Virus record (IMG/VR): IMGVR_UViG_3300032401_000002
Coordinates: 86,168 to 150,167 of that record
Length of the DNA stretch: 64,000 nt
Strand: one strand, 5' to 3'
DNA from: a virus
In this document: one piece after another, positions 14,136-64,000 of the stretch
Layout of the letters: every line of letters starts with the position of its first letter
How positions within the stretch are numbered: position 1 is the first letter of the stretch
Notes under the pieces: generated by a model
Databases searched by the model: none
What the model was told of the DNA's origin: nothing
The model's input: only the letters and a program-made list of their open reading frames with translations
Program-made: the position numbers and the translations under genes

Positions 14136-16832
14136 CTAGAAGATTGAGTCCTCGAACTCGTCTTCAACTGCGTGTGCGTCGATGTCGAACGAAGCAACCG
14201 GGCGGAAGCTCGGTACTCGTCCTGCTGTCGGTGCCTTCGTGCTCGTCGCCTTGCGGAGACCAGCGGTCTTGACCTTGGCGTACGCCTCGATCTGGGCGTC
14301 AAGCGCCTGAACCGGGGTGTCCTCTAGCTCGGACGCGCGGTCGAACTTCGCGTCAGAATCGAGGATGCCTAGCTCGACCTCAGTCTCTGCGACCTTGAGG
14401 GCCTTGTAGACCTGAGCCTTGGCGTTCGCTACTGCGACACCAATCGGGCCACCGACCTCGTTGGAGTTGTCGCCGCCAACAGGGTTAGCACCCTTGAGGC
14501 TACGGAACTCTTCACTGGAGTCGGTCTCGGTGGGGCCACCAACCTCTTCCTTCAGCGATCCGTCAAGCTGGACTCGCGTCGGGTCGTGATCGGGGAAGCC
14601 GTGGCCGGGAGAATCCCAGACGCCACTATCGTCAGCCGTCTTCTCCGTTGCGGAGACGGTGCTGAGCAACTCACCAGCATCACTCGTCACGGCATCCTGC
14701 TGACCAAGGCTATCGCCCTCGCCACCACTCCAGGTGTCCGTGTGGGGCGCGGTGAAGTCGCCCGTGTCCTTCTCTACGTTCTCGTTGTCGATGCCGCTCA
14801 GCGGATCTCCAGTGACAGCGCCCACGCCTTCTACGTCTACACGCTTGTCAGCCTGGACACCCTCACCATTAGCAGAGGCACCGTCAGCGATCTTTGTCTG
14901 TGCGGTCATGTTGTCCTTTCGGGTTTTACTTTCGACTGGAGCCTTCGAGTCCGTGATAACCTTCTTACCAATCGGCTTGTCTGACAACTGTCGTGTAACA
15001 GGAAGGATGGGCCGTTCCTGTGTCTTAATCCGTCCACCTTGGGCGGAAGTCTTCTCAACCTTTACAGTGGCCGTCTCTGCTACCTTTGATGTGGCAGGCA
15101 TAGCGCCGCCCGGCATGGGCTTGGGGCTACTCGGGTCGTTCGGGTTGGTCTGAATATCGTTGGGAGCGCCAGGCTGCTGGCCCTGTGCAGCCTGCTCAGC
15201 GTCCTGCTGATGCATCTGCTCATCGACCTCCTTGGCCTTCTCCAGGTCGGGATTGTCAAAGCCCTCGGGCGGCTCTTCGTAGTTGCAGACTTCGCAGACG
15301 CCGTCTTCCATATCGCTACCGCAGATCGGGCAAACCTGATCCTGACGAAGTGTGTCTACCTGATCGGGAGCAACCGTCATATCTGACTGCGGCTCGGGGT
15401 TACGGTCGGCTGTTACACCACGGCCACGCAAGATCTGCCGAATCTCATTTGCGTTCATGCCATACGAACGTGCGATGGCTTCCAAAGACTGGCCCTGTCG
15501 GTGAGCCGCCACAACGTCGTCATTCATGTTGGCCGTCTTGGCTGTTGAGCGATCCTCAAGACCAATCTGTTGTCCGGCTGCATCCCACTCTGCATCTGCT
15601 GCCTTCATAGCTGCATTGATTTCTGTCTGCTGCTCGGGGGAGAGCATGTTCCAGACGGACACGACCGAACCAGTCGAGCCTTCGCCCAGGAAGTCATTGC
15701 GATCTCCGGGGGTCTCAACGGTCGGGGTGCCATGCTCACCATAAGGGTCATGTCGATCTCCACCCATGGGAACAGCCTGCTTGTTCCGATCAAGATGGTC
15801 AACAAGCTCCCAGAGCTTCTGGTATGTGCCAGTGCTGATTCCACTGAGAGTCTCTGCGACCTCGTCGGGTGTGTAGTAGTCAAGACCTTCGGCGGGCGGG
15901 ATTGCTCCCTGTGCTCCGACGCCAGGTGCAACACCAGCGATGTTGTAGACCGGGACTAGATCTTCCTGCTGTGCTACCTGGACTCCGTACGGGGTCTGGA
16001 CGTGGTACTGAAGGATGCCACCATTGGCGGTGTAGTCCACGATCTTGCCGCTCTGGCCAGAGCCGGGGCCTCCACCGATCTGAACCTCTTCGCCAACGCG
16101 GAACTGCTGCGCGCCTTCTACCTGGACGGCAGACACGCGAGCGGCCTTCTTGATATCGCGCACGAGCGCGGTCTCATCGGCAGGATCGAAGACAAAGCTG
16201 ATCTCGAAGAAACCAATGTCGTAGCAGTCCTCATAGGACTTCTTGGCCACCTTCTGCCCACTCGGTGTGTGGAAGTCAAAGTATGCACCCTTGGACTGGA
16301 CGTGCTTGCAATATTGCTCGGGCGAGCGGGCTTCGTTACCGCAGTGTGAGCACTTGCTCAACTCTACGTTCGCACCCATGGACACGCCATCGATGTCGCC
16401 ATCTACGATAGCCTTGGCGAGCTTGGGGAACTTCTTGGCATCCACTTCGAGCAGAAGCTCGATCCAGGTTGCCGGAAGGTGATTGGCGGGAGCGGCCGAG
16501 TAGTACGGGTCGAGACTTGCTGTCTTCTCGTCCTCGATGTGCAGGGCTGCGTCCACGATGACACCACGCGCCCGCTTGGGGTCGCTGTTGTGGTGGTCTA
16601 CGAAGATCGGCTTGCCGATGAAGGTGCGCCAAGACTTCTCAAGCTCAGTGGCGGGCCATCCATCGTGGTTCTTGTTGACGCGCGATGAGATCGCTCGCAC
16701 GCGCACATAGACGTATCCGTCTTCAGTGCGATAGTCGTCGTACTCAGCGAACTTGGACAACGAAGCAGAGCGCTCCTTAGAGGGAGCGCTCTTGACTTCG
16801 AGGACTTCTAGCTTCGCGTACTTCTGGAACAC
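14136..16832 (-). CDS. Capsid maturation protease fused to scaffold
   Basis: An 898-residue protein. The N-terminal 220 residues resemble phage prohead proteases. A conserved His region (PIFVDHHNSD, H80/H81) and a Ser in GDIDGVSMGANVE (S151) are candidate catalytic residues, and a Cys-rich insertion (CSHCGN, C175) follows. The rest is disordered and acidic like a scaffold, with an HTH-like segment (about 439-475), a zinc ribbon (CPICG at 501, CEVC at 513) and several K-T-A sites (103, 432, 731 and near the end). The start is a GTG at 16832. The protease should cleave scaffold and capsid arms during head maturation. The fusion is unusually long. Confidence 0.7.
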   Translation of the reverse strand: MFQKYAKLEVLEVKSAPSKERSASLSKFAEYDDYRTEDGYVYVRVRAISSRVNKNHDGWPATELEKSWRTFIGKPIFVDHHNSDPKRARGVIVDAALHIEDEKTASLDPYYSAAPANHLPATWIELLLEVDAKKFPKLAKAIVDGDIDGVSMGANVELSKCSHCGNEARSPEQYCKHVQSKGAYFDFHTPSGQKVAKKSYEDCYDIGFFEISFVFDPADETALVRDIKKAARVSAVQVEGAQQFRVGEEVQIGGGPGSGQSGKIVDYTANGGILQYHVQTPYGVQVAQQEDLVPVYNIAGVAPGVGAQGAIPPAEGLDYYTPDEVAETLSGISTGTYQKLWELVDHLDRNKQAVPMGGDRHDPYGEHGTPTVETPGDRNDFLGEGSTGSVVSVWNMLSPEQQTEINAAMKAADAEWDAAGQQIGLEDRSTAKTANMNDDVVAAHRQGQSLEAIARSYGMNANEIRQILRGRGVTADRNPEPQSDMTVAPDQVDTLRQDQVCPICGSDMEDGVCEVCNYEEPPEGFDNPDLEKAKEVDEQMHQQDAEQAAQGQQPGAPNDIQTNPNDPSSPKPMPGGAMPATSKVAETATVKVEKTSAQGGRIKTQERPILPVTRQLSDKPIGKKVITDSKAPVESKTRKDNMTAQTKIADGASANGEGVQADKRVDVEGVGAVTGDPLSGIDNENVEKDTGDFTAPHTDTWSGGEGDSLGQQDAVTSDAGELLSTVSATEKTADDSGVWDSPGHGFPDHDPTRVQLDGSLKEEVGGPTETDSSEEFRSLKGANPVGGDNSNEVGGPIGVAVANAKAQVYKALKVAETEVELGILDSDAKFDRASELEDTPVQALDAQIEAYAKVKTAGLRKATSTKAPTAGRVPSFRPVASFDIDAHAVEDEFEDSIF

Positions 16833-16840
16833 TGCTGTCC

Positions 16841-19314: not shown

Positions 19315-22300
19315 TTACCAGTTGAATTGGTCGTCTGTGCCGTCAACTACGTAGTGCGTGCCGTCAAGGTCTAGGCGATCAAGGTTTCTCGCTTCGCCGC
19401 CATCTTCATCGATGAATGCCCTCTGCTCGCGTGGATCGTAGTCCTTACCGGCCAATTTCGCCATTAAACCCGGATCTACGTCCACACCACCCGTAGAAGT
19501 ACCCTCCAGAAGCCATGTACGGTCTTCTGGGGCGTCTCCAGCGTATGCCCCAGTGAATGTGTCAAGTGAGACCATTTCGTCCTCAGAATCGCTTACAGCG
19601 CTGTTCTTGGAGTCGAGGTCGGAAATGTCATCCTGCTGGGGTGCTCCATCCATGCCGGGACGCGGGGGAGCTTCCTGATCCTGGAATCCATCTCCACTGT
19701 CCGTGATCTGGTCAGCGGGGGCTGCCGACGTGAATGTGGTACCATCTGTGTCTACCTGCTGCTTCGTAAGCTCGTGTCGGTAGGAGACGCCATCACCAGA
19801 GTCCACCGTGTAGGTGATCTTGTCTGGGAGAACTCTCTCGACTACGATCCGATCTGGGATCGCGAACGCGCCCGTCTTCATCTCGTACTCCTGACCTTCT
19901 TCGATCTGAGCGCCCTGATCATCTACCCAAGACTGTCCCTTGTCGGGATGATGAAGCTGATGGGGCTGCTGGGCTGCACCAACGCCACCCTCCTGCACTC
20001 TCTCTTCGCCTGCGGCGTAGAATGCGAACTCAGCATCAGTGGCTCCTCGATGGGCGAACATCTCGTCGTAGCTCGGCTGTCCGCGCTCATAGGCTTCATT
20101 GATCTCGTCTGATTCTGCGTACGGATTGAAAGCCTGTGCCTGATCATCCTGACCAAAGGAGATGCCGCACTGTCGGCACTGGTTCTGACCAGGGCCTGTT
20201 TCTACACCAGGGCCACCGCAAGCCGGGCAAATCGAGCCAGGCATGTCGGTGTCGTTATGAAAGTCAGATTCTGCAATCCAGTTGCCAACCTTGGTGACAA
20301 CCTTGGTGGGCTGAATCGCTGGGCCAATTGGCCCGGAAGCTGTGCCGGGGGCAACCTGATTCCCCTGCTGCGCAAGCTGCTGCTGCATGCTCGCATCAGG
20401 GCACGGGGTGCCAGCAATGTGGGACTGGCCACACATCGGGCAAGTCGGATTCTGTCCTACAGGTACGCCTGCCGCCTGGCCTGCGCCCGGCTGCGCGAAC
20501 TGCATCGGCGCGACACCAGCCATGCCAGCTTCCTTGATGCTTTCTCGCGAGGCGTCACATTCATCGCAGTGGCAATCTGACTCGTGCTCGGTAACGTCGT
20601 CATCGTCGTCATCGCTCGCTAGGTAGTCCCAGAGCGAAGCCTCCTTGGGCTTCTTCTCGTTGGCCTTCGGCTCGTCATCCGATGCTTCATCCGAGTCGTC
20701 TGAGTCATCCGACCCCTCATCCGAGATAGCCTCTTCTAGTGGCGATGTACCATCTTCCTGATCAAGACCATCCTTGTATCCGGGGAAGGCTTCTTCAAGG
20801 AGTGAATCTAGAGCTACCAAGATCGGGTTGTTAGTGCCCGGCTCGTCTGAGTCAGCAAACTCCATCACGAGCGGGAGGTTCAGGTGGAAAGCCTTCATGG
20901 CCTTGTCCTGCATCTCAGGATCGCCGTGACTGTTGATATCCTTGTCGGGGCCGTCAGGCGACTTGCCACCGCCTGTACCGTCAACATCCTTCAACTGCTC
21001 GGGGCCGTCACCCTGCTCCTTCTTGCCGCCGATGCCGCTGTCTGAAGCCTCATCTGTGGAGTTGGTACCGTCGTTCTTGGTTGCCCAACCATCTTCTTCT
21101 TCGCCGAAAGTGTCGGCCGTCTTGGAGACGAGTCCGATCTGCGAGGTATCGGTAGGATCTAGCGGGGCTGCACCGGGTGCGCCACCGCCTCCACCTTGAC
21201 CACCAGGGGATACAATGTTCCTACCTACACCCTGGACAGCACCCTGACCTAGCGCGCGGGTCATCATTCCACCTACGCCCGCCATGCCGCCAGCTTCTGC
21301 ACCGGCTGCCGCTGCGCCGCCGCCAATGCCCAACGCCTCACCGACACCCATCAGGGCAGGGATAGCGAGAGGGGCTGCTGTGACTTGCTGTGTGTGACCG
21401 CACGTATGACATACAGACGTGGATGCCTGCCTAATCATCGGGGAGTAACACTCGGGACAACTATCGAGGGGCGCTGCGTTGGCCTTGTGCCAAGCTAGCT
21501 CTTCATCGATGTGTGCGAAATACTCGGGCTTCAAGTTGATGTGTCCTCCACGTTGATGTTGGTACTGCATGATCTGATTCCAGGCATCGCGCTTCTGCCC
21601 TGGAGACCAATCCGCTGTAGCACCAGGCATCACAGTGATAGTATGGGAGTTCGGTTCAATCTTTAGGTAGTTGCCTGTCTCGACTTTGTTGTACTCGCCC
21701 TTGATGTCGAGGATCACAGGAATGCCCTCGGTGGTCGCCAGAACGGCCGCATGTGAGGTCATACCACCCGTTGCGGTGATGATTGCGCGCACACCTTTCT
21801 GCCATAGCATGAAGTCTTCAGGCTGAAGATGTTCGGCCACCAAGATAGCGTTCGGGGTGATCTCACCGTTCGAGCGTTCCTTGACCCAGGCGACTCCGGT
21901 GATGACTTCACCTTGCTGTTGGGGAGAGATGATCCACGTTCCTCCATGAATCTCGACGGGCTGGAATACCTGGCCCTTGCCCTGCGAGGGCGCTCCACCA
22001 ATCGGGCCATGAAGAGTGATGTTGGCACCAAAGGCTTGTTCGATCTGCTGCTGCGCTGACTCTTGGTTGAACTGTGTTCCGGGGAACACCCTCTGCACGT
22101 CGGCCGTGCCATCGTTGTAGACTGACCCAAGAGCGGCACAATCTTGCGGGTACCGAAGTCCGTTGCGCTCCGCTAGCTTCTCATGCACTGCATGAACACC
22201 ATGCTCAAAGTGCATCTGACCTTGCTTGTCGATAATCCACTTACCGATCTCGACCTTCATGTTCGCATCGCCTGAGAACATAGCGTCCCAGTCTTCTGCG

Positions 22301-22797
22301 GTGACCGTGCGGCTCGCAATCTTCTGGGCCATCTTCCAGGTCGCCAAGTTCATGGACGGATACGAGTCATCTGTCTTCATGCGGTTGCGCTTCGGCTCGC
22401 GCTCGGGCATGCCGTCTAGGTGATGCTCCTGCGGTGCCGGGTCGTTGTAGACGAACTCGTCGTCTTTCTTGTTCCACTCAGGAGTCAGGTCTTTGCCGCA
22501 TGTGGGGCATGCCCGCAAATCCGTGCTTTCTTGGCACAATGGGCAGTTGACAACTGTATTGCCCGTGAATCCGTGCATTGCAGCCATGTGCCCTTCAAGC
22601 TCGGGAACGCCAGCTAGCTCGGAGTGTTCTAGCTGATTCTGGTTGAACAAGTCGTTGTCACCACCAGTCGAGTGACCACGGTCAGGCCCAAGCCCGTTGT
22701 CGGGAGCTTTGATGTAGGTCTTCGACTCGGGTTCCCAGATCCAGACTGTGCCGGGATCTGTAGGATCGCTGAAGCTAGGCATGGGTAGATCGGGCAT
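19315..22797 (-). CDS. Giant multidomain protein with PEP-utilizer mobile domain
   Basis: About 1160 residues. Visible parts in order are a zinc ribbon (about 87-102: CPLC, CPTC), a globular region, and a PEP-utilizing-enzyme mobile (phosphohistidine) domain (about 295-395). Its signature GGMTSHAAVLATTEGIPVIL contains the His that is phosphorylated in PEP synthase and PPDK. Next come a second zinc ribbon (CPEC, CHTC, about 449-468), Gly/Ala and acidic low-complexity regions, two more ribbons (CPMCG, CPACG) and an acidic C-terminus. No ATP-grasp or PEP-binding barrel is visible. K-T-A/K-I-A linkers separate parts. The ATG at 22797 fits the ribosome site better than the GTG at 22803. The locus suggests a virion protein. 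Confidence 0.7.
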   Translation of the reverse strand: MPDLPMPSFSDPTDPGTVWIWEPESKTYIKAPDNGLGPDRGHSTGGDNDLFNQNQLEHSELAGVPELEGHMAAMHGFTGNTVVNCPLCQESTDLRACPTCGKDLTPEWNKKDDEFVYNDPAPQEHHLDGMPEREPKRNRMKTDDSYPSMNLATWKMAQKIASRTVTAEDWDAMFSGDANMKVEIGKWIIDKQGQMHFEHGVHAVHEKLAERNGLRYPQDCAALGSVYNDGTADVQRVFPGTQFNQESAQQQIEQAFGANITLHGPIGGAPSQGKGQVFQPVEIHGGTWIISPQQQGEVITGVAWVKERSNGEITPNAILVAEHLQPEDFMLWQKGVRAIITATGGMTSHAAVLATTEGIPVILDIKGEYNKVETGNYLKIEPNSHTITVMPGATADWSPGQKRDAWNQIMQYQHQRGGHINLKPEYFAHIDEELAWHKANAAPLDSCPECYSPMIRQASTSVCHTCGHTQQVTAAPLAIPALMGVGEALGIGGGAAAAGAEAGGMAGVGGMMTRALGQGAVQGVGRNIVSPGGQGGGGGAPGAAPLDPTDTSQIGLVSKTADTFGEEEDGWATKNDGTNSTDEASDSGIGGKKEQGDGPEQLKDVDGTGGGKSPDGPDKDINSHGDPEMQDKAMKAFHLNLPLVMEFADSDEPGTNNPILVALDSLLEEAFPGYKDGLDQEDGTSPLEEAISDEGSDDSDDSDEASDDEPKANEKKPKEASLWDYLASDDDDDDVTEHESDCHCDECDASRESIKEAGMAGVAPMQFAQPGAGQAAGVPVGQNPTCPMCGQSHIAGTPCPDASMQQQLAQQGNQVAPGTASGPIGPAIQPTKVVTKVGNWIAESDFHNDTDMPGSICPACGGPGVETGPGQNQCRQCGISFGQDDQAQAFNPYAESDEINEAYERGQPSYDEMFAHRGATDAEFAFYAAGEERVQEGGVGAAQQPHQLHHPDKGQSWVDDQGAQIEEGQEYEMKTGAFAIPDRIVVERVLPDKITYTVDSGDGVSYRHELTKQQVDTDGTTFTSAAPADQITDSGDGFQDQEAPPRPGMDGAPQQDDISDLDSKNSAVSDSEDEMVSLDTFTGAYAGDAPEDRTWLLEGTSTGGVDVDPGLMAKLAGKDYDPREQRAFIDEDGGEARNLDRLDLDGTHYVVDGTDDQFNW

Positions 22798-22826
22798 GGT
22801 CACCCTTTAGGGCCTAGCTATGAGAG

Positions 22827-23090: not shown

Positions 23091-24326
23091 TTAGATCTTG
23101 ATGAGGTAGTTCAAGACGATGTATGCGCCAGCTTCGGACACGCCCGACGTAGATCCAATGTTCCCGGATACACCATGGGTGTGGGTGCCGTCTGCTCCAC
23201 CGATGCTTCCGCTGAACTCACCGCTGGGGTGGGTGTGGCTTGCGGCATTGATGCTGATTCCAACACCATGGGAGTGAGCACCAGCGCCACCAGTGCCGCC
23301 ACCGCCGCCGTTGATCGATCCATTCGTCCATGCGGTTGCGCTACCCGCGAACGAGAACCCAGGAACCAGATTGACGCCGGTCGGAATACCACCGTAAGAG
23401 TGAGCATGGTCGCCAACGCCGTCTGTGCTGCCGCTGCCTGTGTGGCTGTGCGATCCACCAGAGATTGCGAGCGTGTGCGCGTGGCCGTGCGCTCCCGCTG
23501 TAGCTACTAGCAGCGTACCAACACCATGGTAGTGCTTGAAGGTGCGGGAACCAACGGCAAGTCCTTCATTCAGGTTCAAGGTCAAGACATCAGCGTTAGT
23601 GCCCTTGCCGACAACTGTTCGCCCGCGAAGGTCAGGCACGTTGAATGTCGTTGAACCATCGCCTACACCATAAGTGGTTCCGATGAGGGCGAACAGGGTC
23701 GCGTACGTTGCGCGTGATACGGCAGTACCGTCGCAGAGCAGCCAACCTGTCGGCGCGCTCGATCCTGCGTACGCAACCACCGAGGCGGGCGGGGTTCCAT
23801 TCGACTGAACGAAAGCCGTCGTTGCGATCTTGGTGCTTGAGTCTCCGTTCGAAGGGGTCGGCGCTGTCGGAACTCCGGTGAACGCGGGAGATGCCAAGCG
23901 CGCCAGTAGAGCTTCGTCTGAAAGGTTAGCTGCGGCTAGAGCGACTCCAGCGATAGACAGGGCTGCTGCGTTGATAGCGCCCGTGCGTGTGATGTAGGCA
24001 AGGATCGATCCCGAAGCGCTCTGCGCTTCAAGGAGATTCGCGATGTCAAGGTTGCTGCTCTGCTTGACGATGATCGGCGTAACGTCCGCCGTACCCTGGA
24101 AGATCTGGTTGGCGCTGGGAGTTAGCGTCGGAGCGGAAGCCAATCGAGCAACAACGGTGGAGAATGTGCCACTAGGGTTGACCCCAAGCTCGGTCTCAAT
24201 CGCCAAGATGGCGTCAGCGACGTTGTTGTGCTGGGGCGCGTGGACTCCTGCCGTAACCGTCGCGTCAATCGCGTTGTTCTTCAGGATCGTTGTGTTGTCG
24301 AGCGCTCCGGGGTAATTGGTCGTCAT
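23091..24326 (-). CDS. Tail fibre with collar domain
   Basis: A 411-residue protein. The N-terminal half is a repetitive Ala/Thr shaft (including GVPTAPTPSNGDSSTKIATT, a common fibre segment). The collar domain follows (TGWLLCDGTAVSRATYATLF; TTFNVPDLRGRTVVGKG), then a Gly/His-rich tip with many HxH pairs (HGHAHTL, HSHTG) that probably binds metal. It is a strong match to phage tail-collar fibres involved in host contact. It stands alone between a terminator and a small coiled-coil gene. Confidence 0.85.
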   Translation of the reverse strand: MTTNYPGALDNTTILKNNAIDATVTAGVHAPQHNNVADAILAIETELGVNPSGTFSTVVARLASAPTLTPSANQIFQGTADVTPIIVKQSSNLDIANLLEAQSASGSILAYITRTGAINAAALSIAGVALAAANLSDEALLARLASPAFTGVPTAPTPSNGDSSTKIATTAFVQSNGTPPASVVAYAGSSAPTGWLLCDGTAVSRATYATLFALIGTTYGVGDGSTTFNVPDLRGRTVVGKGTNADVLTLNLNEGLAVGSRTFKHYHGVGTLLVATAGAHGHAHTLAISGGSHSHTGSGSTDGVGDHAHSYGGIPTGVNLVPGFSFAGSATAWTNGSINGGGGGTGGAGAHSHGVGISINAASHTHPSGEFSGSIGGADGTHTHGVSGNIGSTSGVSEAGAYIVLNYLIKI

Positions 24327-24361
24327 CTCATCCCTTACGTGTTCGTCTCGCTACAAAGGAA

Positions 24362-24390
24362 AGGGACGACCCTCGTTGAGAGCCGTCCCT
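24362..24390 (-). terminator. Hairpin terminator after 24415-24888
   Basis: AGGGACG and CGTCCCT form a 7-bp stem. The arms enclose an inner CTC-GTT-GAG pairing. It stands 25 bases past the stop of the minus-strand gene and before the tail fibre start. Confidence 0.6.
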
Positions 24391-24414
24391 AGTCGAGCGC
24401 CTGCGAATTGCTGC

Positions 24415-24888: not shown

Positions 24889-24936
24889 GTGCGTTAAGTT
24901 ACTTTCCTGTTGGAGGATTGAAGGTCGATAACCTCA

Positions 24937-24947: not shown

Positions 24948-24963
24948 GAGGTCGTTCGACGTT

Positions 24964-25792: not shown

Positions 25793-25828
25793 ACGCTCTT
25801 TATCGGCACGTTTGACGAAACAATCCAG

Positions 25829-27649
25829 CTAGCTGGAGAGTGACGCCCATTCCGATACCTCTTCCCAGTCTTCGTTTGAATGCTTGCGCCACCAATCCTT
25901 GATTGCTTCTTCCGCGTGTTCGCGAACTTCAGGCTCGGATAGCTGGGTGTGCTTGATCTTGATCTCGGAACCACTCGTGCGTAGCTCGCCCGTGTCGGTC
26001 TTTGTGGTGTCAATGTCCATCATCGCGTTGCCCGTGTCCACGCCGAACTTGTCGAGTAGCTCCTGGAGTATGTCTGTCACCTTGAGATTATGATCCCATT
26101 CCTTGATCACAAGTTCGCTCATGTAGTAGACGAACAAGTAATCAGGATCGCTGTCTTCGTCTGCTGCCGCCTTCAGGTTCTGGGACGGTACGCGCTGTGT
26201 CTTACCGGACTGGTAGTCCTTGACAAGCATGTGCTCGCCATCAGCCCCCAACACGATTCCAAGTCCGCCACCAGGCGTTGTGACTTGCGTCCCCTTGGCG
26301 AAGAGCGGAGCGCCAGTCTCAGTGATCGTCTCTGTGCCGGTAGGCTCGGACAATGCGTGACCGCATGTTCCTGCCATGCACTTCTGCATGCGGCGGGCTG
26401 TCTGCTGGTGAGCCAACTCGATGTTGGCCTTGCCGTGGTCGCCGTAGCCTGTTACGATGTGGTTGTAGCCGTCAGTGTCCGTCCACTGATAGACGGGCTT
26501 GCCGTTTCCGCTGTACCGATTGAAGCCCCATCCAAGCTCTTGGGCCAGTCCGTTCTCTCCGACTGCTCCGACCACAACGCGCGAGACGGGCTTGAGCGTG
26601 CGCTCGGGATCTTCGCCACATGAGGGACACTCGATGCGACCCTTGTGCTCGGCCTCGCGCTGGTACGTCACACCGCAGTGGTGACATCGCTTGATCGTGT
26701 GCTTGTGCTTGCCCTTCTTATCAACGATCTTCAACTCATGCACGTCCTCCTTGAAGGTGAACTTGCCCTCGTCATCTCTCTTGTGCTCGTCTTCCTCGAA
26801 CGCGGTCTTGGAGATAGCAGGCCCGAAGACATCATCGATGTCAGACCAATCATCGCCGCCAATCGCTTGGTCGGGGAGGTTAGCATTCTCGACGGCCAGA
26901 GCTTGTGACTGCGGGTCGGGAGTCTTGAAGGGGTTGAGATGACTGAAGTCATACGTACCTACCGTGATCATCTGCTTGTTGCCGATCCATGTGTCCGTTA
27001 GCCCCTCACGGAAGAAGACATACGCCTTGTCGGTGAAGAAGTTGAGGCGGACTCCGATCAGGGCGGGCTTCAGTCCATTCGCCATGCAGTAAGCGATCTT
27101 GGCCGCACGCTCGTCCTTGCCACCGATCTTGAATCGCTCCTGGGCTTGCGAGTGGTTCGTCTTGATCTCGACCCCGAAGTTGCCGCGCTCGCTGCGAATG
27201 ATGGCGTCAATCGGGAAGGTGTTCTGATTCGAAGCTGGCTCAACTGCACCAATACCTGGAAGCTCTCCGAGACCCAGGACAACCTGCTCGCCGATGTCCC
27301 CCATCTGCGAAAGCGTTAGACCAGATCGCGTACGCCCACCAGGATTCAGCACGGGCTTGCCGCTGCCGTCCGGGTCTTGAATGTGACTCTTGGAATCGTC
27401 CAGGTAGTTGTCCGTGTAGCCGCAATGAGGACAAGTGAACTCGCCACCGTTCTGCTCGATCTCCTGCATTTCACTTTGTGCAAAGTGATAACCGCACTTG
27501 GGGTTAGTGCAGTGAGCAGACGGATCTACATGATGCTGTTCGTTCGGGCCTGTCAGTTCAGCTACCGCGTCATCGACGTACTTGGGTCGTGCGACGGGCA
27601 TAGCAACGGCCTGCCAGTTTCCGATCTTCTCCCAGTCAAAGACAGTCAT
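25829..27649 (-). CDS. Large protein with PD-(D/E)XK nuclease-like domain and zinc ribbons
   Basis: A 606-residue protein. The first zinc ribbon is at 47-76 (CTNPKCG, CPHCG). A restriction-endonuclease-like core follows (about 110-235): E121 in GDIGEQVV, D148 in FPIDAII, and E161-x-K163 in GVEIKTNH, the classic E-D-ExK order. An SKTAF linker stands at 280, then a second ribbon (CHHCG, CPSCG, 322-344), then an alpha/beta region and an acidic C-terminus. The start overlaps the stop of the next large ORF (TAATG). A metal-dependent nuclease carried at a virion locus could act on host DNA or genome ends. The nuclease call rests on this motif set. Confidence 0.65.
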   Translation of the reverse strand: MTVFDWEKIGNWQAVAMPVARPKYVDDAVAELTGPNEQHHVDPSAHCTNPKCGYHFAQSEMQEIEQNGGEFTCPHCGYTDNYLDDSKSHIQDPDGSGKPVLNPGGRTRSGLTLSQMGDIGEQVVLGLGELPGIGAVEPASNQNTFPIDAIIRSERGNFGVEIKTNHSQAQERFKIGGKDERAAKIAYCMANGLKPALIGVRLNFFTDKAYVFFREGLTDTWIGNKQMITVGTYDFSHLNPFKTPDPQSQALAVENANLPDQAIGGDDWSDIDDVFGPAISKTAFEEDEHKRDDEGKFTFKEDVHELKIVDKKGKHKHTIKRCHHCGVTYQREAEHKGRIECPSCGEDPERTLKPVSRVVVGAVGENGLAQELGWGFNRYSGNGKPVYQWTDTDGYNHIVTGYGDHGKANIELAHQQTARRMQKCMAGTCGHALSEPTGTETITETGAPLFAKGTQVTTPGGGLGIVLGADGEHMLVKDYQSGKTQRVPSQNLKAAADEDSDPDYLFVYYMSELVIKEWDHNLKVTDILQELLDKFGVDTGNAMMDIDTTKTDTGELRTSGSEIKIKHTQLSEPEVREHAEEAIKDWWRKHSNEDWEEVSEWASLSS

Positions 27650-30219
27650 TAGGCAGCCGGGATGATGTAGGGGTTCTGTTCATGCGGATGATGTCCGGGC
27701 ACCTGAGCCAGTGGCACGAGGTTCTGTGGCTGTCCCTGGAACTCCTGGTCGAAGTCGTTAGCTGCGCGTTCGATGTGGCCGCGCCCTGCCTCGAAGGCTT
27801 CGGGGCCAACCCATGCTCCAGCCTTCGCGTTGGTCGCTGCGTCCCACTTAGCATCCGGGCCGTTCCACGGGAGTGGGTCGAGGATGCGGAGGGGAGAGTG
27901 GTCGGAGTGCTCGCCGGGATTACGAATGGCATCCCACAGTCCCCAGTGGTACAAGCCCAGAGGCATGTGACTGTAGCCTGTCGCGTCCTTGCCTGCGCGC
28001 TGCATGCGCTCCATCTTGTAGTAGTCTCGGGGTGTCATATCCTTCTCTGATCGACGCAGACCGCGAATGACGTGAGTGTCGATGATGCCAAGCTCCGAAC
28101 CCATGGGGTGCAGAAGCAGCCATGCGAACGATGCCACTTTGGGGTTGACACCCGGCAGGTTCATGTTCATCACGGTGTTGCGGAAGTGGAATCCTTTGCC
28201 GCCAGTCTTCAGATCTTCAAGGGCTGCATCTCGAATCTCGCCGATGCGCTTGCCAACAGTCTCGATGGCGTCGAGATGGCCACCCATGAAGGCACCATAC
28301 TTGGCGTCCTGGCTGGAGAACCCACTGGCGTCCTGATTACCCTGCTGCCATGCATCGTCGTGCATGAATAGCTGATCCTCAGCGGCTCGCTTGGTTCCCC
28401 ACTCTTCCGGGAAGGTTGTGTCTCCGGGTCGCTGATCATGGATGGGGCTGACGTAGCCTTCTTCCCAGTGCTGCTTGGGCTTGGTGCCCATCTGCTGGTG
28501 CATCTGATTGCGCACCCAGTCAGGCCACTCCTCGGGCGGGAGAGTAGCCGCAACGTCACGCGCCATCGCGGCAGCGTTCTGGATCTCTTCAGCAGCGTCC
28601 TCGTAGAACTGCTCACTGGCAAGAGCCATCTGTCCCGGCGTCCATCCTCGTGCGGGGTTGTAGTTCTCCTTGAGCCAGGTGTCTACCATTCGACGTGCCA
28701 TGTTGTAGCGACGTAGCTCGGACTTCTCTCCAGTGTCGTGCTCGGTCGCAAGCTGGGCCTCGAACTCCTTGATCTTATTGAAGATGACTTCCTTGGCTTC
28801 CTTCATTGCCTTGGCGGGATCAAGAGTCGGATCGTCAGCGGTTAGTTCGTGAGCCAGATAGTCCAACTGCTTCTTGTAGCTCAGATGTGACCCCTCTGAG
28901 TACCCTAGAGACTGGTTGTGCTTCTCTCGCTCTTCTTCGAGCATGTGCCACAAGTCAACAGCCTTGGTCGAAGGATCAGCATGCATAAGTGCCTGGTAGT
29001 GAGCGGCGTTCCAGCGAAGGTGCTTGCGGGGAGACAAGAGCGCCACACGGAAGGCGTTCATGATCGCACGCTCCTGAGTAGCCTTGTCCTCGCTCGGCCA
29101 ATCGGTATCGATCTTGGCTGCGTTCTGCGTTGTGGCCGCTGCGTCGATGTAGTCGTCCTCGGGCATCTCGGCGAAGTTCTTGGGCGGCACAGAGTGAGGG
29201 GGCTGCCAGAAGGCATTTGGATCGTGCGGGCGGTCGGGTGATACCATCTTCGCTCCTTCGACCTGATGCGTCTTCACGTCGAAACCCTGCATGACAGGAT
29301 TGCCCAGTCCGAAGGTTGGGGATGGTACGTAGTTCTGAGGCATGACCCAGGAGCCAGGCCCCTGCGTGTTAGCATCGGGGGACGCCTGGTCGAGCGCATC
29401 CTTCCCCTGGTTCATGTTGTCCGGCTGGTTGAACTGAGGTAGCCCGCCATGAGGCACGAACACATGCTCACCATGCTTCTCCTGCACGGGGTGAAGGAAC
29501 TTGCTCATGAAGCCAACCTTCTGCGGGCCGAAGCCCTTGGTTGACGAGCGATACGCTACCTGCCCAATGCACTCGGTGAAGAGCGCCTCACGGGCCAGAG
29601 GAGACACGAGGGGGAAGTGGACGCCACAAGCTAGGTTCTCGCCTCGCCACGAGAAGTCCCCGCCCGACTGAGCGTGCCCCAGAACGTCATGGACGATGCG
29701 GAAGTTCACGTTGTCTTCGACGCTCCAGATTGGGTGCTCGGAGTTAGCTCGGGAGACGATGAAATGCTTGTTCTTGTGGATGTCTTCAGCCATCTCTGCC
29801 GCGTCAGCGTATGGCTCAGGATCATCTGACACCTGAACGGTGATCTGCTGACGAATAGCATCGGCCTGGATCTTGGACTCAGCAGCCAAAGCCTTCCACG
29901 CGGGCACGGCGGCATCGTCAAACGGCGGCAGGGCTGCGTACGCCTTGGCAATCTCATCCTTCTCTGACAGCCAGTCGCTCGCCCAGGCAGCGATCTTGAG
30001 TGAAGCCATACGCCGCACCTTCGTGGCTTGCACCGCATATCGGTACACGGCGGCAAGCGCGATGGCAGGCGTCTTGCCTGAGCGCTCGATGTCTTGGCCG
30101 GTCTCCTCATTGCTCGCCTTGGCGACGTACACGTCACCCTTGCGGTCAATCTTGCCGAGACTCCAGCCCAGGCTCGTCAGCTTCTCGTAGATTTCTGACT
30201 GTGGCGTGGCTACTTGCAT
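27649..30219 (-). CDS. Large multidomain protein with endonuclease III-like segment
   Basis: About 856 residues. An N-terminal small domain is followed by a region with H-D-V-L-G-H (about 177-184) and a later E (FTECIGQ, about 218), a possible metal triad. A long helical middle comes next. The segment at about 688-730 has NLPGVNPKVASFAWLLL then IIDTHVIRGLRR. This matches the helix-hairpin-helix plus catalytic-Asp region of endonuclease III-type glycosylases (LPGVGRKTA ... VDTHI-R), keeping Lys and Asp. No Fe-S cysteines are seen. The ATG at 30219 lies 5 bases after AAGGGG and is preferred over the GTG at 30225. It may be a packaged DNA-repair or modification enzyme. Confidence 0.6.
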   Translation of the reverse strand: MQVATPQSEIYEKLTSLGWSLGKIDRKGDVYVAKASNEETGQDIERSGKTPAIALAAVYRYAVQATKVRRMASLKIAAWASDWLSEKDEIAKAYAALPPFDDAAVPAWKALAAESKIQADAIRQQITVQVSDDPEPYADAAEMAEDIHKNKHFIVSRANSEHPIWSVEDNVNFRIVHDVLGHAQSGGDFSWRGENLACGVHFPLVSPLAREALFTECIGQVAYRSSTKGFGPQKVGFMSKFLHPVQEKHGEHVFVPHGGLPQFNQPDNMNQGKDALDQASPDANTQGPGSWVMPQNYVPSPTFGLGNPVMQGFDVKTHQVEGAKMVSPDRPHDPNAFWQPPHSVPPKNFAEMPEDDYIDAAATTQNAAKIDTDWPSEDKATQERAIMNAFRVALLSPRKHLRWNAAHYQALMHADPSTKAVDLWHMLEEEREKHNQSLGYSEGSHLSYKKQLDYLAHELTADDPTLDPAKAMKEAKEVIFNKIKEFEAQLATEHDTGEKSELRRYNMARRMVDTWLKENYNPARGWTPGQMALASEQFYEDAAEEIQNAAAMARDVAATLPPEEWPDWVRNQMHQQMGTKPKQHWEEGYVSPIHDQRPGDTTFPEEWGTKRAAEDQLFMHDDAWQQGNQDASGFSSQDAKYGAFMGGHLDAIETVGKRIGEIRDAALEDLKTGGKGFHFRNTVMNMNLPGVNPKVASFAWLLLHPMGSELGIIDTHVIRGLRRSEKDMTPRDYYKMERMQRAGKDATGYSHMPLGLYHWGLWDAIRNPGEHSDHSPLRILDPLPWNGPDAKWDAATNAKAGAWVGPEAFEAGRGHIERAANDFDQEFQGQPQNLVPLAQVPGHHPHEQNPYIIPAA

Positions 30220-30257
30220 GGTCACCCCTTAGGTGTCCGATGCAGACAAGAGCTAAG

Positions 30258-58073: not shown

Positions 58074-61000
58074 CTAGGACTTGACCCATGCTCCATTGAC
58101 ATACGAGAACGACGCTGTCTGGCTTGCAACCTCGACGGGCTTGTCGATCTCGCCGCCCCATGCGTCGAAGTTCTGATCGTCCTTGTCGTACTCCACCAAC
58201 GTGACGTACATAGCCAGAGGATCGACGCCTGCCTGCACGAGGTACTCGTTGTTCTGGTCGTTCTCGTACCTGTCGGGGTTCATCTCGAACCCAGCCTGAT
58301 CTGCGATAGCTTCGTAGATCACTGTAGCCATCCAGTAGCGGTCAGAGTTGTAGCCTTCGTTCTCGGCTTCTGAGTCTTGCTCGAACGTAGCGTAGTATTG
58401 AGCGTTGGATCGGTCAGTCGTCCACAGTCCACGAGTGAACTGGTCAGCCAACTGGGCCGGGTCTTCCAGCACGTTCCATGGTGCTACTCGGGATGCTCCT
58501 CGATACACTGTCGTGGCGCTAGCCGTCTTGACAGAGCCTTGAGCGAACTGCTTGTCCCAGTCTTCAGGCGATGTATCCCAGCCATCATCCATGTCCATGT
58601 CGGCTTGTTCGGCGATGCTGTCGGGATCATGGCCCTTGGTGAGCGGCATACCAACGGCAGCTTCAAGCCTCTCGATGTGCTCGGGTGTGACATTGGGTCG
58701 CATCCAGATCGCATGCGTGTTGCCCTGAATGGCACCATCAAGGAACTGACCAGGGTACTTGAATGGATGCTGGTTGTACCAGTCCAGGATAGGAGCTTCT
58801 AGGTGGCGGTGGAAGTGACCAGGCGTTCCCATGTGCAGGATGTCATTGCCTCGGTCGTACTTGTAAGGCGTGCGGTTCTCCCACATGTCGAAGTCCTGGC
58901 CCATCTCGCCCTCGAAGTTCACTCGGTTGCTGGGAGTGTGGTCAACGATGTGGGTTGCCGTCCTCACGCGGGCAGCCTTCCAGCCTTCTTCTGCGTCATC
59001 CTGCTTGTCGAGTCGGTTCCACTCCATGCGGTTGGTGAGGGAGTCATCTTGATGGTCTTCATCGTCGTACTCGAAGTCGTCAGTGTCGATCCAGGGCTGG
59101 CGCTCCATCCAGTCTTCAAGAGCATCGCGCTCCCTGTCGTAGTATTCGTCCTCGTCATCGTCTTCACCCGGCCCACTCCACTCGGGGTGATCCTTGTAGA
59201 AGTCGTCCATGTACTCGCCGTCTTCGTCCATGATGCGGAAGTTGCCGTGCTCGATCTTGGACGGGTGGATCGGCCCGTAGTGCATTACGGGGTACCCATA
59301 CTCCTCGCTCAAGAACTTGGCTGTCTCTTCCCTCAAGTCGTTGGGCATTTGGCGCAATACGTTGACCGAGTGCTGGTGATGTCCACCACGCTCGTACCCG
59401 TACGCCTGCGCTCCTCCCAGGTCATCCTGGTCGTACCCAGGGTTCTCCTTCTCGTACGCATCGATGTGAGGCTGGATGCGATCAACGAGATCACTCTGCG
59501 TCGAAGACTCGCCATCCCTGTGCCACTCGGCAGCTTCCTGCTGCTCGGGGTAACGTCCCATGTATTGGTCGTAGAAGTGCTCGTGGTCTGGGCCGAGGTT
59601 GTTCTTGTCGATCCCCTTGACGCGCAGGATGCGAGGGTCAGTCCAATGGCCCTGCATGCGCTGGTACTGAAGGGCCTTCTGTGCGTTGGGCCACAGATAC
59701 ACAGCGTTCTCTTCGATAGGTAGGTTCCACTTGCGCTCGGTGCCTTGCTCTGATCCCACCAACCCCTGCTTGGCGATATCGGGGATGCGGTCGGCCTCGG
59801 TGACGTGGTACCAAGTGTTGTCGTCGTAGGGCATGGAGATTGCGGTCATAGCCAGCTTGAGTTCGGGCTTAGCCAAGCTCACGAGATCTTCGGCCCTGCG
59901 GTTCTCGATGTCAGAGTCATGGGGATACCACTGGACGTGGTACGTTCCATCGTCGTACCAGTTGTAGCCCTCGACATGGCCCGTCATGCCTTCACGTCCT
60001 GACCCAGGTGCGCCGGTAACAGCTTCGCCCTTGACGAAGGACTGCTGGCCACCACCTTCAAGCACGACGGGGTTGAATGCTGCCGTGTGCTCAGCCAACG
60101 TGATAGCGGGATCGATGCCTGCCTCGATCATGTCACGCTGGACTGACTTGCGGTGCTCGTTCATGTCACCCAATGCATATCCCTTGTAGGGTAGGATCTG
60201 ACCTTCAGCGATCTCGCCCGTGATGCCTGAGTACGGTAGGCGCTTGCGGATCGAGTCATGGTGCTTGCCCTGCTCGCCGAACTGGGTCTTGTCTACCTCG
60301 GGATAGTGGATGTACGGGATGCGGTTCTGCCAGTAAGCGTTCATGCGGTCGGTGCGGAGTGGCTGCTCCTTCTGCTCATTCAAGATCTCCTCCCACAAGT
60401 CAGTGCGCCCTGCGTGCTTGGCCGTCTTGCTCACCCACCCGTGCAGTGCGTTCTCAGTGTGATTGATGCCTGCCTGCTGCGCCCACTGTCGAACCATCTC
60501 GGTGTGCTCGGGCAGGGGTGCCTTGTTGCGTGGGCCAAGCACCTGGCCCAGGTTGCCCGTACCATCTGGCTCGTGCCACACGCCATCCTCGTACGTCTTC
60601 CAGATGCCTCGCCCCACCTGGAAGGATGCGAGAGGTAGGTTGGCGGGGTCACGCAGCGAGTAGTGCTCTGAGCCATTGATCGGGATGTGCTCGCCATCCT
60701 TGAAGATCGACCCATTCTGCTGCCAACAGTTGCGCATCATCACGCCTTCACGGTTCTTGTCTGCCATCGTCTTGAGTTGGCGAATCGTGTGACCATCTGG
60801 GAACTGATGCACGATCTCTGACTGATCAGGGCCTTGCGTTAGGTCGATCTCGTCGTTGGCACGCAGTCGCTGGTTGTACGTCTCGCCCGCTAGCTTGGTC
60901 TGAGCGTTGCGGTAGTAGTCGTTGCCTGCTTCGCCCCATGGCATGGTGTCGGGCCACTGCGTCTTGGCCATCTCTTCCACCGTGTTGTCTGATGGGATAA

Positions 61001-64000
61001 CCTCGTCGTTGCGTCCGATCTCGTACTCTGTTCGGCATCGAGGACATGTGGCCCCGCCTTCGAACAAGATCTCTAGCTGGCTGCCACACAACGGACACTC
61101 GGGGTACACATCACGATCTCCAACAGTGTCGAAGTTCCAGTCGGTTGAGTGTCCTGCCGTGGATAGCTTACCCTGAATTGCGATCCGAGATGGATCAATG
61201 TGGTCTAAGGTAGCCGCTGTCTGCGTCCACGAAATCGCTTCGTCAACGATTGTGGGATCACTTACAAGATCGTGCAGAGACACAGCGCCCTCATCCGACT
61301 CGATATACCCTGGGCCTTCCTCCCACCAAATCTCATCACCGTCGATTTGTCCACCTGTATCCACCAGACTCGGCAAGTCGGCCATGAGCTTCAGGCCATT
61401 GACGTTGACCTGGAGGATGGTGTAGTCTAGACGATTGAACGCCTGATTCTCCTTGGCCAACTCCCACGGCGAATATGCTAGGTAGACGGGTCGTCCACCA
61501 TAGAAGGCGTCAGCCCACGTACCAGCGTCCGTGAAGCCACCTTCTGCGCCTGGGGTCAAGCCCTGCTGCATGATGGTGGCAACGTTCTTGGTCTCGGTCA
61601 CATGATACATGGTCTCACCTTGTGCCATCTTCAACAGCTTGGTCACGACAGGATTGGGTGCTGGGATGGGCCTTGGGTTCTGAGCTTCAGCGTTGTAGTA
61701 GTCTGATTCGGTGTTGGGCTTGCCGAGGGGCTGGCCAACCACCGGCATCTGGAAGTGAGGCAAGCGCTCGATCTGCTCGTACCAGTTGGGGCCATGGACG
61801 TAGCCTGAGCCTTCGCCGTTGCCTCGATCCTGCACCCACTGTTGCCTACCAGCGAATGTGTTCTCGGGGTACTGATGACCACCAGGGATGTGGGGGTAGT
61901 TCAAGTTGTTGTGGTTCAAGTCGTTGCCAGGTGCGTTGTGTACCGGCAGCGTGGTCTCCAACGCAGTCTTTTCGTATGTCGCCACCCAGTCAAGCAGGTT
62001 GTCCACTCGGACGAACTGTTGCTCTCCTTGATCGAAGAGGGCCTGCTGCGGGTCGGCTGAGTCCTGCTGCTTGCGGCCAGCCTTCCATAACTGGATGCGG
62101 TCGTCCAACAATTCGAGGAGAGCTTGACCTTCTCGTCCATGTACTTGCATGAGATGGTGGGCCGTGGTGTACAACACTTGGGCTAGATGTCGAGCGTCCA
62201 CGCCTTTGTTGGCTGCTGTGATGGCTTGGTCGATGATCGGCTCGATGGCTTCGTTGTTGTTGTGCCCGGCGTTGTAGTTCTGATACCCCTGGATGTGGTT
62301 CGGCGTCTGGTACATCCAGACACTAGGGTTGCCGTTGGCGTCGTGCTCGACCTCGCCTTCTTCGTCTGTATGTGCCCACGGGTCACGATCCATCACGGCT
62401 TCGTGGTAGTCCTGCGCTCCCGCTAGCGTGTTGGGGTAGACCGTCTGGGCAGGATGGTAGTCAACGTCGGGGTCGTTGTACCAGGCTTCTTCGTCAAAGC
62501 CTTCGCCTACGTCGTACCCTGCTTTGTCCAAGTGCTCGTACCACTCATCGACCATAGCCTTGTACTCGGGCTTGATGTTGCCGTTCGACTTGCCCTGCTC
62601 TTGTACGACCTTGAACTCCTTGTCGTCGTAGATGGTGCGGTCGCCATTGGCTATGGGGCCAGAAGCCATGGGGTTAACATCGCCTTCAACTTCGATGGTG
62701 ACATGCGGATGGCCCTTGGGGTCACGGAGTGAGAAGATGGTTGAGTTGCCGTTGCTCACAGTGTCGCAGTACCCACCAACGCAGTGACCCATCAGTTCGC
62801 CCTCTAGCGCTAGATCCTTGGGGCCGACTTTGTCGATGTGCCAACCATCATCGAACGTGTGGACAACTGTTGAGTCAACCCACCCGCCGCCGTTCTCTTC
62901 GCGGTGCTGCTTGTCCATGTCGTAGACCCACTGCTCAAGCTGGGCGAAGTCGAACTGCTTGTTCATGTAGTCTGGGAGTGGCTTGTTGTGCTCGTTGGCC
63001 CAGACCATCCACTTGGTGGCTTGGTCGAGGATGTCCTCAGCGTGTCGTCGGTTGTTCTTGGTGATGCCTGGTCGATCTTCGCGCTGGCCAGGATACGCCT
63101 CGATGAAGTTGGGGTCGATGGGCTTGAGTCCACGCTTGTACTCCCTAACTGCCCACGGCATCAGCTTGAAGCCCTCGTCCGGGATGCCGTCGAGGATGAT
63201 CTTCAAGCGCTTCCAGTCAGTCATGATGGCGTTGCCACCATCTGAGTAGTCGTACGGCCCAGCGTTGTTGGGCGGTGGCATCTTGGTCGGGCCACCTTCA
63301 TCAGTGTTCTTCAGCTTGAGGATGTCCTCGCGGTTCAATAGCTGCTCTCGTGTCTTGGTTGCCAATGCTGACACGTCCGCTGCTAGTCGTGGCCAGAAGC
63401 CCCGCATAACACGTCGCTTGTGATGTGTTAAGCGCTGATTGGCTAGATAATCCATCACATGTGATGTCTTATGGTCACCCATCATCTCGACGTGCTGAGC
63501 ATACGACTCAGGGTCGTGCTTCTGTGCCCACTCTCTGCCAGCGTCTGACTGGTTGTCCCAATCGTGCTCGGGGTTGTGGCCCTGATCTCGAAGGTGATTG
63601 AACATGGCATCAGCCACACCACGCCGACGCCATCGAGGGTTGACCTCGACCTGCGTGACCAGGCCATCGGAGTCGATGAACATGTGCCCAACTTCTGAGT
63701 TGCTGAATCCAGTGAAGGCGTAAGCCTCGATCAGTGTTGACCCCTCGCCATCTTGATCGCTTGTGACCTCGAACGTCAGTTGAGGCAGATCACCACGCTG
63801 ACCCATGCCCAGCTTTGTAGACAAACTATGAGGAGTTGTCGAAACTGCACCCCCCTTTGACTTTGCAGTGTTACGAGCTTCCTTCTTGGCTGCGATCAAC
63901 TCACCATCAGTCCACTGCTGTGCCAACTCCAACGTGAACGTGCCACCGTTGGCCTCGACCGCCTTAGCGATCTCCTTGTGCTCAAGCTCGGCCAACCCGT
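58074..64000 (-). CDS. Giant multidomain protein with GNAT, PcfJ-like and ADP-ribosyltransferase-like segments, 5' end outside
   Basis: At least 1973 residues. In order: GNAT-like (about 75-145, RRRGVADAMFNHL), PcfJ-like 1 (about 250-490, LMGHCVGGYC at 401), EKTAL linker (676), ADP-ribosyltransferase-like A (about 795-940: MYHVTETKNVATIMQQGL, VYLAYS), zinc ribbon (967-987), degenerate PcfJ-like 2 (about 1050-1170), ART-like B (about 1394-1580: WYHVTEADRIPDI, VYLWPNAQKAL), acidic stretch, and ART-like C (about 1829-1930: VYRGAS, LWTTDRSNAQYYA, EYLV). Segments are separated by K-T-A sites (676, 1190, 1823). The frame is open at the edge; the TTG at 63995 is only a possible start. Confidence 0.65.
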   Translation of the reverse strand, partial: GLAELEHKEIAKAVEANGGTFTLELAQQWTDGELIAAKKEARNTAKSKGGAVSTTPHSLSTKLGMGQRGDLPQLTFEVTSDQDGEGSTLIEAYAFTGFSNSEVGHMFIDSDGLVTQVEVNPRWRRRGVADAMFNHLRDQGHNPEHDWDNQSDAGREWAQKHDPESYAQHVEMMGDHKTSHVMDYLANQRLTHHKRRVMRGFWPRLAADVSALATKTREQLLNREDILKLKNTDEGGPTKMPPPNNAGPYDYSDGGNAIMTDWKRLKIILDGIPDEGFKLMPWAVREYKRGLKPIDPNFIEAYPGQREDRPGITKNNRRHAEDILDQATKWMVWANEHNKPLPDYMNKQFDFAQLEQWVYDMDKQHREENGGGWVDSTVVHTFDDGWHIDKVGPKDLALEGELMGHCVGGYCDTVSNGNSTIFSLRDPKGHPHVTIEVEGDVNPMASGPIANGDRTIYDDKEFKVVQEQGKSNGNIKPEYKAMVDEWYEHLDKAGYDVGEGFDEEAWYNDPDVDYHPAQTVYPNTLAGAQDYHEAVMDRDPWAHTDEEGEVEHDANGNPSVWMYQTPNHIQGYQNYNAGHNNNEAIEPIIDQAITAANKGVDARHLAQVLYTTAHHLMQVHGREGQALLELLDDRIQLWKAGRKQQDSADPQQALFDQGEQQFVRVDNLLDWVATYEKTALETTLPVHNAPGNDLNHNNLNYPHIPGGHQYPENTFAGRQQWVQDRGNGEGSGYVHGPNWYEQIERLPHFQMPVVGQPLGKPNTESDYYNAEAQNPRPIPAPNPVVTKLLKMAQGETMYHVTETKNVATIMQQGLTPGAEGGFTDAGTWADAFYGGRPVYLAYSPWELAKENQAFNRLDYTILQVNVNGLKLMADLPSLVDTGGQIDGDEIWWEEGPGYIESDEGAVSLHDLVSDPTIVDEAISWTQTAATLDHIDPSRIAIQGKLSTAGHSTDWNFDTVGDRDVYPECPLCGSQLEILFEGGATCPRCRTEYEIGRNDEVIPSDNTVEEMAKTQWPDTMPWGEAGNDYYRNAQTKLAGETYNQRLRANDEIDLTQGPDQSEIVHQFPDGHTIRQLKTMADKNREGVMMRNCWQQNGSIFKDGEHIPINGSEHYSLRDPANLPLASFQVGRGIWKTYEDGVWHEPDGTGNLGQVLGPRNKAPLPEHTEMVRQWAQQAGINHTENALHGWVSKTAKHAGRTDLWEEILNEQKEQPLRTDRMNAYWQNRIPYIHYPEVDKTQFGEQGKHHDSIRKRLPYSGITGEIAEGQILPYKGYALGDMNEHRKSVQRDMIEAGIDPAITLAEHTAAFNPVVLEGGGQQSFVKGEAVTGAPGSGREGMTGHVEGYNWYDDGTYHVQWYPHDSDIENRRAEDLVSLAKPELKLAMTAISMPYDDNTWYHVTEADRIPDIAKQGLVGSEQGTERKWNLPIEENAVYLWPNAQKALQYQRMQGHWTDPRILRVKGIDKNNLGPDHEHFYDQYMGRYPEQQEAAEWHRDGESSTQSDLVDRIQPHIDAYEKENPGYDQDDLGGAQAYGYERGGHHQHSVNVLRQMPNDLREETAKFLSEEYGYPVMHYGPIHPSKIEHGNFRIMDEDGEYMDDFYKDHPEWSGPGEDDDEDEYYDRERDALEDWMERQPWIDTDDFEYDDEDHQDDSLTNRMEWNRLDKQDDAEEGWKAARVRTATHIVDHTPSNRVNFEGEMGQDFDMWENRTPYKYDRGNDILHMGTPGHFHRHLEAPILDWYNQHPFKYPGQFLDGAIQGNTHAIWMRPNVTPEHIERLEAAVGMPLTKGHDPDSIAEQADMDMDDGWDTSPEDWDKQFAQGSVKTASATTVYRGASRVAPWNVLEDPAQLADQFTRGLWTTDRSNAQYYATFEQDSEAENEGYNSDRYWMATVIYEAIADQAGFEMNPDRYENDQNNEYLVQAGVDPLAMYVTLVEYDKDDQNFDAWGGEIDKPVEVASQTASFSYVNGAWVKS

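Follow-up and report, generated by a model that had tools for sequence, protein, structure and literature searches.

A lysine-threonine-alanine-type motif shared by the head protease, head proteins and large multi-enzyme reading frames of Ceeclamvirinae-like phages may mark sites of processing inside the head

Phage lambda (C/Nu3) and herpesviruses (UL26/UL26.5) make their protease as a fusion to the scaffold, and an internal start within the gene yields a nested product that consists of scaffold only. Head proteases that cut packaged and injected proteins are known in T4 and in phiKZ-like phages (PMC5694885, PMC9391042). T4 gp21 cuts the scaffold as well as packaged, injected proteins that modify the host (the internal proteins and Alt), and the internal proteins IPI and IPIII act on host defence (PMC9391042, PMC5694885). 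In phiKZ and SPN3US, the prohead protease recognizes a three-residue motif (S-x-E, A-x-E) that is common to the protease, portal and ejection proteins, with Ser preferred at P1' (PMC10052503, PMC5694885), and SPN3US gp245 cuts A-x-E followed by Ser (PMC10052503). That polyvalent proteins may be packaged and then processed is not a new idea, as Iyer, Burroughs and Aravind (2017) predicted both the packaging of multi-domain ORFs and their proteolysis (PMC5512222).

The window analyzed here is a 64,000-base stretch covering positions 86168-150167 of a virus record that is 150,167 bases long, and 80 related loci were fetched for comparison; ORFs were called mechanically throughout. The major capsid protein (MCP) is 53-56% identical to the MCPs of the Ceeclamvirinae, the group of the mycobacteriophages Myrna and Bxz1. 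It is separated from the protease ORF by one small gene, both here and in about 60 related loci (Table 1). The portal and terminase genes are located outside the window (record positions 23482-25830 and 28545-30728, respectively). Beside the protease, MCP and tail genes, and on the same strand, are large ORFs that we treat as candidate cargo, and which are therefore near the late or virion genes. A cluster of phrog_9600 'tail assembly' paralogs was also observed on the minus strand (window 35226-36164, 37084-38061 and 38058-39392). A search of viral contigs for close orthologs of the cargo ORFs turned up a single near-identical fragment, and a literature search for virion proteomes or protease motifs of the Ceeclamvirinae-like group returned none.

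Table 1. Positions of the capsid, protease/scaffold and candidate cargo features and of their motif sites in the window
Feature	Position	Strand	Remarks
Major capsid protein	12413..13462	-	phrog_2522, 2e-94
Head maturation protease-scaffold fusion, 898 aa	14136..16832	-	phrog_18299, 5e-21
Predicted layout of the fusion			AF2 model: protease ~1-235; Tudor/SH3-like barrel ~241-296; helical/HTH ~388-471; zinc ribbon ~497-522; disordered 548-798; scaffold helices 799-865
KTA residue 103	16518..16526	-	variable loop, protease domain
KTA residue 432	15531..15539	-	helix edge in AF2 model
KVA residue 583	15078..15086	-	disordered stretch, AF2 model
KIA residue 647	14886..14894	-	six residues into predicted nested scaffold product; disordered stretch
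KTA residue 731	14634..14642	-	disordered stretch; sole KTA of this ORF deep in disorder
KTA residue 855	14262..14270	-	closes C-terminal scaffold helix; helix edge
Predicted nested scaffold gene, internal start M642, 257 aa	14136..14909	-	C-terminal part of protease ORF
Shine-Dalgarno AAGGA of internal start (AAAGGACAAC-ATG)	14914..14918	-	
Candidate cargo 1	19315..22803	-	PEP-utiliser mobile domain (316-380), zinc ribbons, conserved C-terminal module
KTA residue 561, cargo 1	21115..21123	-	
KLA residue 1116, cargo 1	19450..19458	-	equivalent place RTA in Myrna gp96, ET08 gp85
Candidate cargo 2	25829..27649	-	
KTA residue 281, cargo 2	26801..26809	-	between 45-244 and 374-434 modules
Candidate cargo 3	27649..30225	-	phrog_3170
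KIA residue 77, cargo 3	29989..29997	-	immediately ahead of N module
Candidate cargo 4	32383..34380	-	2H phosphoesterase / 2'-5' RNA ligase-like domain 328-484
KIA residue 134, cargo 4	33973..33981	-	
Candidate cargo 5	40882..43854	-	PcfJ-like (218-464) + GNAT (825-961)
KTA residue 490, cargo 5	42379..42387	-	directly past PcfJ module
KVA residue 730, cargo 5	41659..41667	-	ahead of GNAT module
Candidate cargo 6	58074..63998	-	PcfJ-like modules 275-495, 967-1177; weak DUF7002-like stretch
KTA residue 677, cargo 6	61962..61970	-	
KTA residue 1191, cargo 6	60420..60428	-	directly past second PcfJ module
RTA residue 1679, cargo 6	58956..58964	-	
KTA residue 1824, cargo 6	58521..58529	-	

The ORF next to the MCP very probably yields both a protease-scaffold fusion and a scaffold-only protein. 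This follows from the presence of a Shine-Dalgarno sequence before the equivalent of M642 in 18/18 aligned orthologs having that Met, compared to 17/274 for other internal Mets, even though the amino acids encoded by the internal ribosome-binding site vary among orthologs. In many orthologs the motif first appears in the scaffold-only protein a few residues past its start; the position of KIA647 is occupied by KTA, RTA or HTA in many of them, and the context of KTA855, V-K-T-A-G-L, is conserved in most. H80 and S151 are invariant in 28 protease sequences including that of Myrna, and represent a putative catalytic pair. The ORF had no Pfam protease match, the AF2 model of the protease fold reached a pLDDT of 54 with weak BFVD matches to prohead proteases, and searches of PDB and viral folds gave no PDB match and no reliable solved relative. 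Unlike lambda C/Nu3 and UL26/UL26.5, the ORF carries Tudor-like and zinc ribbon modules and variable inserts between protease and scaffold. The Tudor/SH3-like barrel (window 15945-16112, minus strand), for which Tudor-like matches were obtained, is absent from most orthologs and marks a variable insert site. Inteins occur in the protease ORFs of relatives (L065:5565-9248, L030:1809-5432 and L032:5166-9134), directly after the conserved SMG that contains the putative active-site Ser and in the zinc ribbon, and an intein also adjoins a PcfJ module of a cargo ORF (G013 150456-155132).

A preliminary description of the window had proposed that K-T-A recurs at domain boundaries of large minus-strand ORFs, and that the prohead protease cuts there to release packaged enzymes. 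Every K-T-A that it listed was present on recheck, including the four in the protease ORF, as were the K-I-A sites of cargo 3 and 4. Most of its residue numbers were off by one and are corrected here (281, 490, 677, 1191 and 1824), and the ORF given as 19315-22797 does contain a KTA, at residue 561, but ends at 22803. The list was selective, because three further KTA occur in the window: the tail sheath (1712-3715) has one and the ORF 38058-39392 has two. The KTA sites are real and above chance. The enrichment over expectation that had been named as a check was found across the whole record (22 KTA against 11.4 expected, with 10-12 for other letter orders), and the letter-order test was replicated in further genomes.

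To define the motif, we turned to 45 non-redundant protease orthologs, which contain 115 KTA compared to 14.1 expected. Position preferences in these sequences were K or R, and more weakly H, in first place, T followed by L, I and V in the middle, and Ala in third place. [KR]-[TLIV]-A describes the motif better than K-T-A, with 374 occurrences compared to 73 expected. With the widened motif fixed, we used as a control the mean count of the same letters in the five other orders, in seven genomes including the present one and then in seven genomes fetched later. The protease/scaffold ORFs contained 69 copies against 17.6 in the first set and 68 against 16.4 in the second (together 137 against about 34), and the terminase-to-portal genes contained 65 against 26 and 37 against 16.8 (together 102 against about 43), the gene classes of the second set being assigned by homology and position only. 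Cargo ORFs of relatives, which were collected by BLAST from the window's cargo and did not contribute to the preliminary description, contained 86 against 46.6 (p = 2.5e-6) and 46 against 29 (p = 6e-3; together 132 against about 76), where the p-values assume independent sites and the related genomes are not independent. All other ORFs showed only 1.07- and 1.13-fold.

The excess persisted when homologous or similar flanks were collapsed (protease 87 against 33, head 71 against 34, cargo 100 against 60). The middle T was preferred in the same gene classes, with observed/expected values of 54/6.5 in the protease, 32/7.5 in head genes and 51/16.1 in cargo, compared to 237/222 in the rest. In head and protease proteins the residue following Ala was S, D or G, and almost never V, I, F or P, a bias that resembles the P1' constraint of a protease. 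In cargo the excess of the widened motif is less than 2-fold, so that chance probably accounts for about half of the sites; KTA proper is cleaner there (17 against 4.2 and 13 against 3.6 in relatives' cargo, together 30 against 7.8). The pattern was weaker and different in the clade B relatives (G025, G027 and G028). One ORF of relative G002 with 15 RTA was excluded, because these form an [LR]TAAG-type repeat in a doubtful frame.

Placement at domain boundaries, as originally suggested, has statistical support. In 14 cargo ORFs, scored with a small and partly hand-picked set of recognized domains, the motif occurred 8 times inside domains against 9.4 expected, and 60 times outside against 32.8 (1.8-fold). 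For example, KTA281 of cargo 2 separates a module that is a standalone protein of 255-276 aa in four relatives from a module that is part of a 2581-aa ORF in another, and KTA490 and KVA730 of cargo 5 are both located between the PcfJ and GNAT modules. Some K-x-A matches are false positives within domains, such as the conserved KVASFAWL at residue 696 of cargo 3. When the coverage of BLAST segments (HSPs) was used as a domain map, sites were not placed outside conserved segments, but this map is uninformative because long alignments pass through linkers. The disordered, acidic flanks reported earlier were borne out only in part: flanks in the protease were marginally more disordered than those of control orders, with KTA731 as its one KTA deep in disorder in the AF2 model, and the flanks in cargo and head genes did not differ from controls.

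The content of the cargo ORFs resembles that of polyvalent proteins, which likewise join unrelated enzyme domains (GNAT, 2H phosphoesterase, nucleotidyltransferase, ParB), show extensive shuffling and are located near late genes (PMC5512222). The polyvalent pattern, in which a single large ORF combines at least two domains that are unrelated and for the most part enzymatic, was found in cargo 5 and in two ORFs of relative G021. One of the latter (L091:2259-6431, minus strand, 1390 aa) combines Acb1 anti-CBASS, a cyclic-phosphate receiver (cREC) and PcfJ, and the other (L092:2399-6106, minus strand, 1235 aa) combines YunG, PcfJ and a complete CCA-adding enzyme / poly(A) polymerase. The longest cargo ORFs of relatives, of 2581 and 3216 aa, contain repeated PcfJ modules, and the Acb1-like, CCA-adding, GNAT and PcfJ domains are shuffled among them. 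The N and C modules of cargo 3 are separate ORFs in relative G027, and the C-terminus of cargo 1 resembles Myrna gp96 and ET08 gp85. Cargo 6, the largest, has its 5' end cut by the contig end, and a search across contig ends for its continuation gave no end overlap and no continuing frame. PADLOC returned nothing convincing for the cargo.

Elsewhere, the 2H domain of cargo 4 is found in Arthrobacter and Microbacterium phages, in genes next to the portal that bear the annotation capsid maturation protease, and Streptomyces phage Geonosis has it in a MuF ORF. These occurrences lend some support to packaging, which would parallel the enzyme domains that MuF-fused effectors carry on portal-associated head proteins; unlike those effectors, the window's cargo ORFs had no MuF domain that we could find. 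The same 2H domain is matched by phrog_18402, a family labelled head maturation protease. DarA, DarB and DdrB of phage P1 are also very large packaged anti-defence proteins, some of them processed, but no KTA-type motif is described for them in the portions of the two sources used here (PMC9024508, PMC5512222).

The best explanation of these data, and a moderately probable one, is that the cargo ORFs encode 'polyvalent' packaged proteins and that the head protease, acting in trans, cuts these at [KR]-[TLIV]-A. It builds on the motif statistics, the restriction to certain gene classes, the absence inside domains, the domain shuffling and the internal start. The motif, mostly K-T-A with a small or polar residue after it, would be the recognition site of this lineage's head maturation protease, and would probably represent P3-P2-P1 with scission after Ala, although scission after K is also possible. 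Made as a fusion to the scaffold alongside the predicted scaffold-only product, the protease would cut itself and the scaffold during head maturation, as well as the small head proteins whose genes lie between those for terminase and portal. The large multi-enzyme ORFs would be cut inside the head too, freeing their domains for injection with the DNA. With no canonical zincin embedded in the cargo of the window, the head protease is the obvious candidate for the releasing enzyme. The cargo-polyprotein reading of the preliminary description is thus retained in part: the motif pattern that it predicted was found in the protease/scaffold, portal-adjacent and multi-enzyme ORFs, but its K-T-A definition was too narrow. 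Cutting at several internal sites of multi-domain ORFs would differ from T4, where short N-terminal propeptides are removed from single proteins, and from phiKZ and SPN3US, where P1 is acidic rather than the site having a basic first residue and Ala, and where reported substrate cuts, the protease's own excepted, release N-terminal propeptides.

Several observations count against cleavage of cargo by the head protease, namely the less than 2-fold excess in cargo, cargo flanks that are no more disordered than controls, the HSP-coverage result, no conserved motif site at the MCP propeptide position, the weaker signal in clade B, and structure searches that did not confirm the protease fold. Trimming of termini only, or a docking motif, would produce a similar pattern. 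It is conceivable, but rather unlikely, that the large ORFs are carried in the head and injected uncut, as polyvalent proteins, and that only scaffold and terminal propeptides are cleaved at the motif. Intact multi-domain virion enzymes are known, such as the N4 virion RNA polymerase (PMC5512222), and cargo shows a far smaller excess than do the protease/scaffold and head genes. However, the cargo excess replicates and falls between domains rather than within them.

We also regard as unlikely a docking function, in which the motif binds the protease, scaffold or shell and recruits proteins to the prohead while internal copies stay uncut. The same gene classes would bear such a tag, and the terminal positions of the motif would suit targeting equally. 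Terminase-portal genes have 7 motifs at residues 11-20 compared to 2 expected, cargo ORFs show no excess of such N-terminal, propeptide-type motifs, one portal-adjacent family has it at residues 14-22, like the T4 capsid targeting sequence, and portal-adjacent proteins also carry motifs 41-60 residues from their C-termini. Cutting is favored over docking by the many copies per protein at non-homologous places, including loops of the protease itself, and by the P1'-like constraint on the next residue. Processing of the cargo by another peptidase, either an embedded zincin of the kind proposed for polyvalent proteins or a host protease, is improbable. Embedded MPTases are the commonest polyvalent domain (PMC5512222), and a cargo ORF in relatives G027 and G028 carries a canonical HELQH, but the cargo ORFs of the window lack a canonical HExxH in a zincin context, and it is in the ORF of the head protease itself that the motif is strongest. 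Chance, composition or shared ancestry as the source of the recurrence, for which the KTA in the tail sheath and 38058-39392 and the several K-x-A sites inside conserved domains might speak, is least probable, being largely refuted by the letter-order controls, the replication set, the collapsed flanks and the near-null result in other ORFs.

Release of cargo by the head protease also departs from the published scheme for polyvalent proteins, which, in the part used here, ascribes processing to embedded zincin or C-terminal assemblin-like peptidases and describes no shared cleavage motif (PMC5512222). What appears new is a common motif that is confined to head and polyvalent genes and recurs in a replication set of genomes, together with the proposal of a separate, trans-acting head protease as the releaser. 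More tentatively, and with somewhat less than even confidence, we suggest that Ceeclamvirinae-like phages possess an unrecognized release tag of basic, hydroxyl/aliphatic and alanine residues, by which one trans-acting head protease dismantles both the scaffold and rapidly shuffled packaged polyproteins (2H/Acb1-like anti-CBASS, CCA-adding enzyme, GNAT, PcfJ); the host would then receive individual counter-defence enzymes along with the DNA. If so, the motif would allow the packaged proteome of a large and mostly unannotated phage group to be listed from sequence, and would point to enzymes injected ahead of phage gene expression, with anti-CBASS and tRNA-repair domains useful first.

This group includes the common laboratory mycobacteriophages Myrna and Bxz1, and the proposal that polyvalent proteins are packaged and processed becomes directly testable in Myrna virions. 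Myrna gp97, the protease/scaffold protein, contains 12 motif copies compared to 3.3 expected, among them KTA at residues 809-811 and RTA at 1192-1194, and is the top-ranked ORF in the tested 150 kb of the genome, and gp96 contains 7 compared to about 1.2. Although gp97 (46700-50335; L186/L187) is annotated as 'tape measure', it is actually the protease/scaffold fusion, and gp128 is separately annotated as the tail length tape measure protein.
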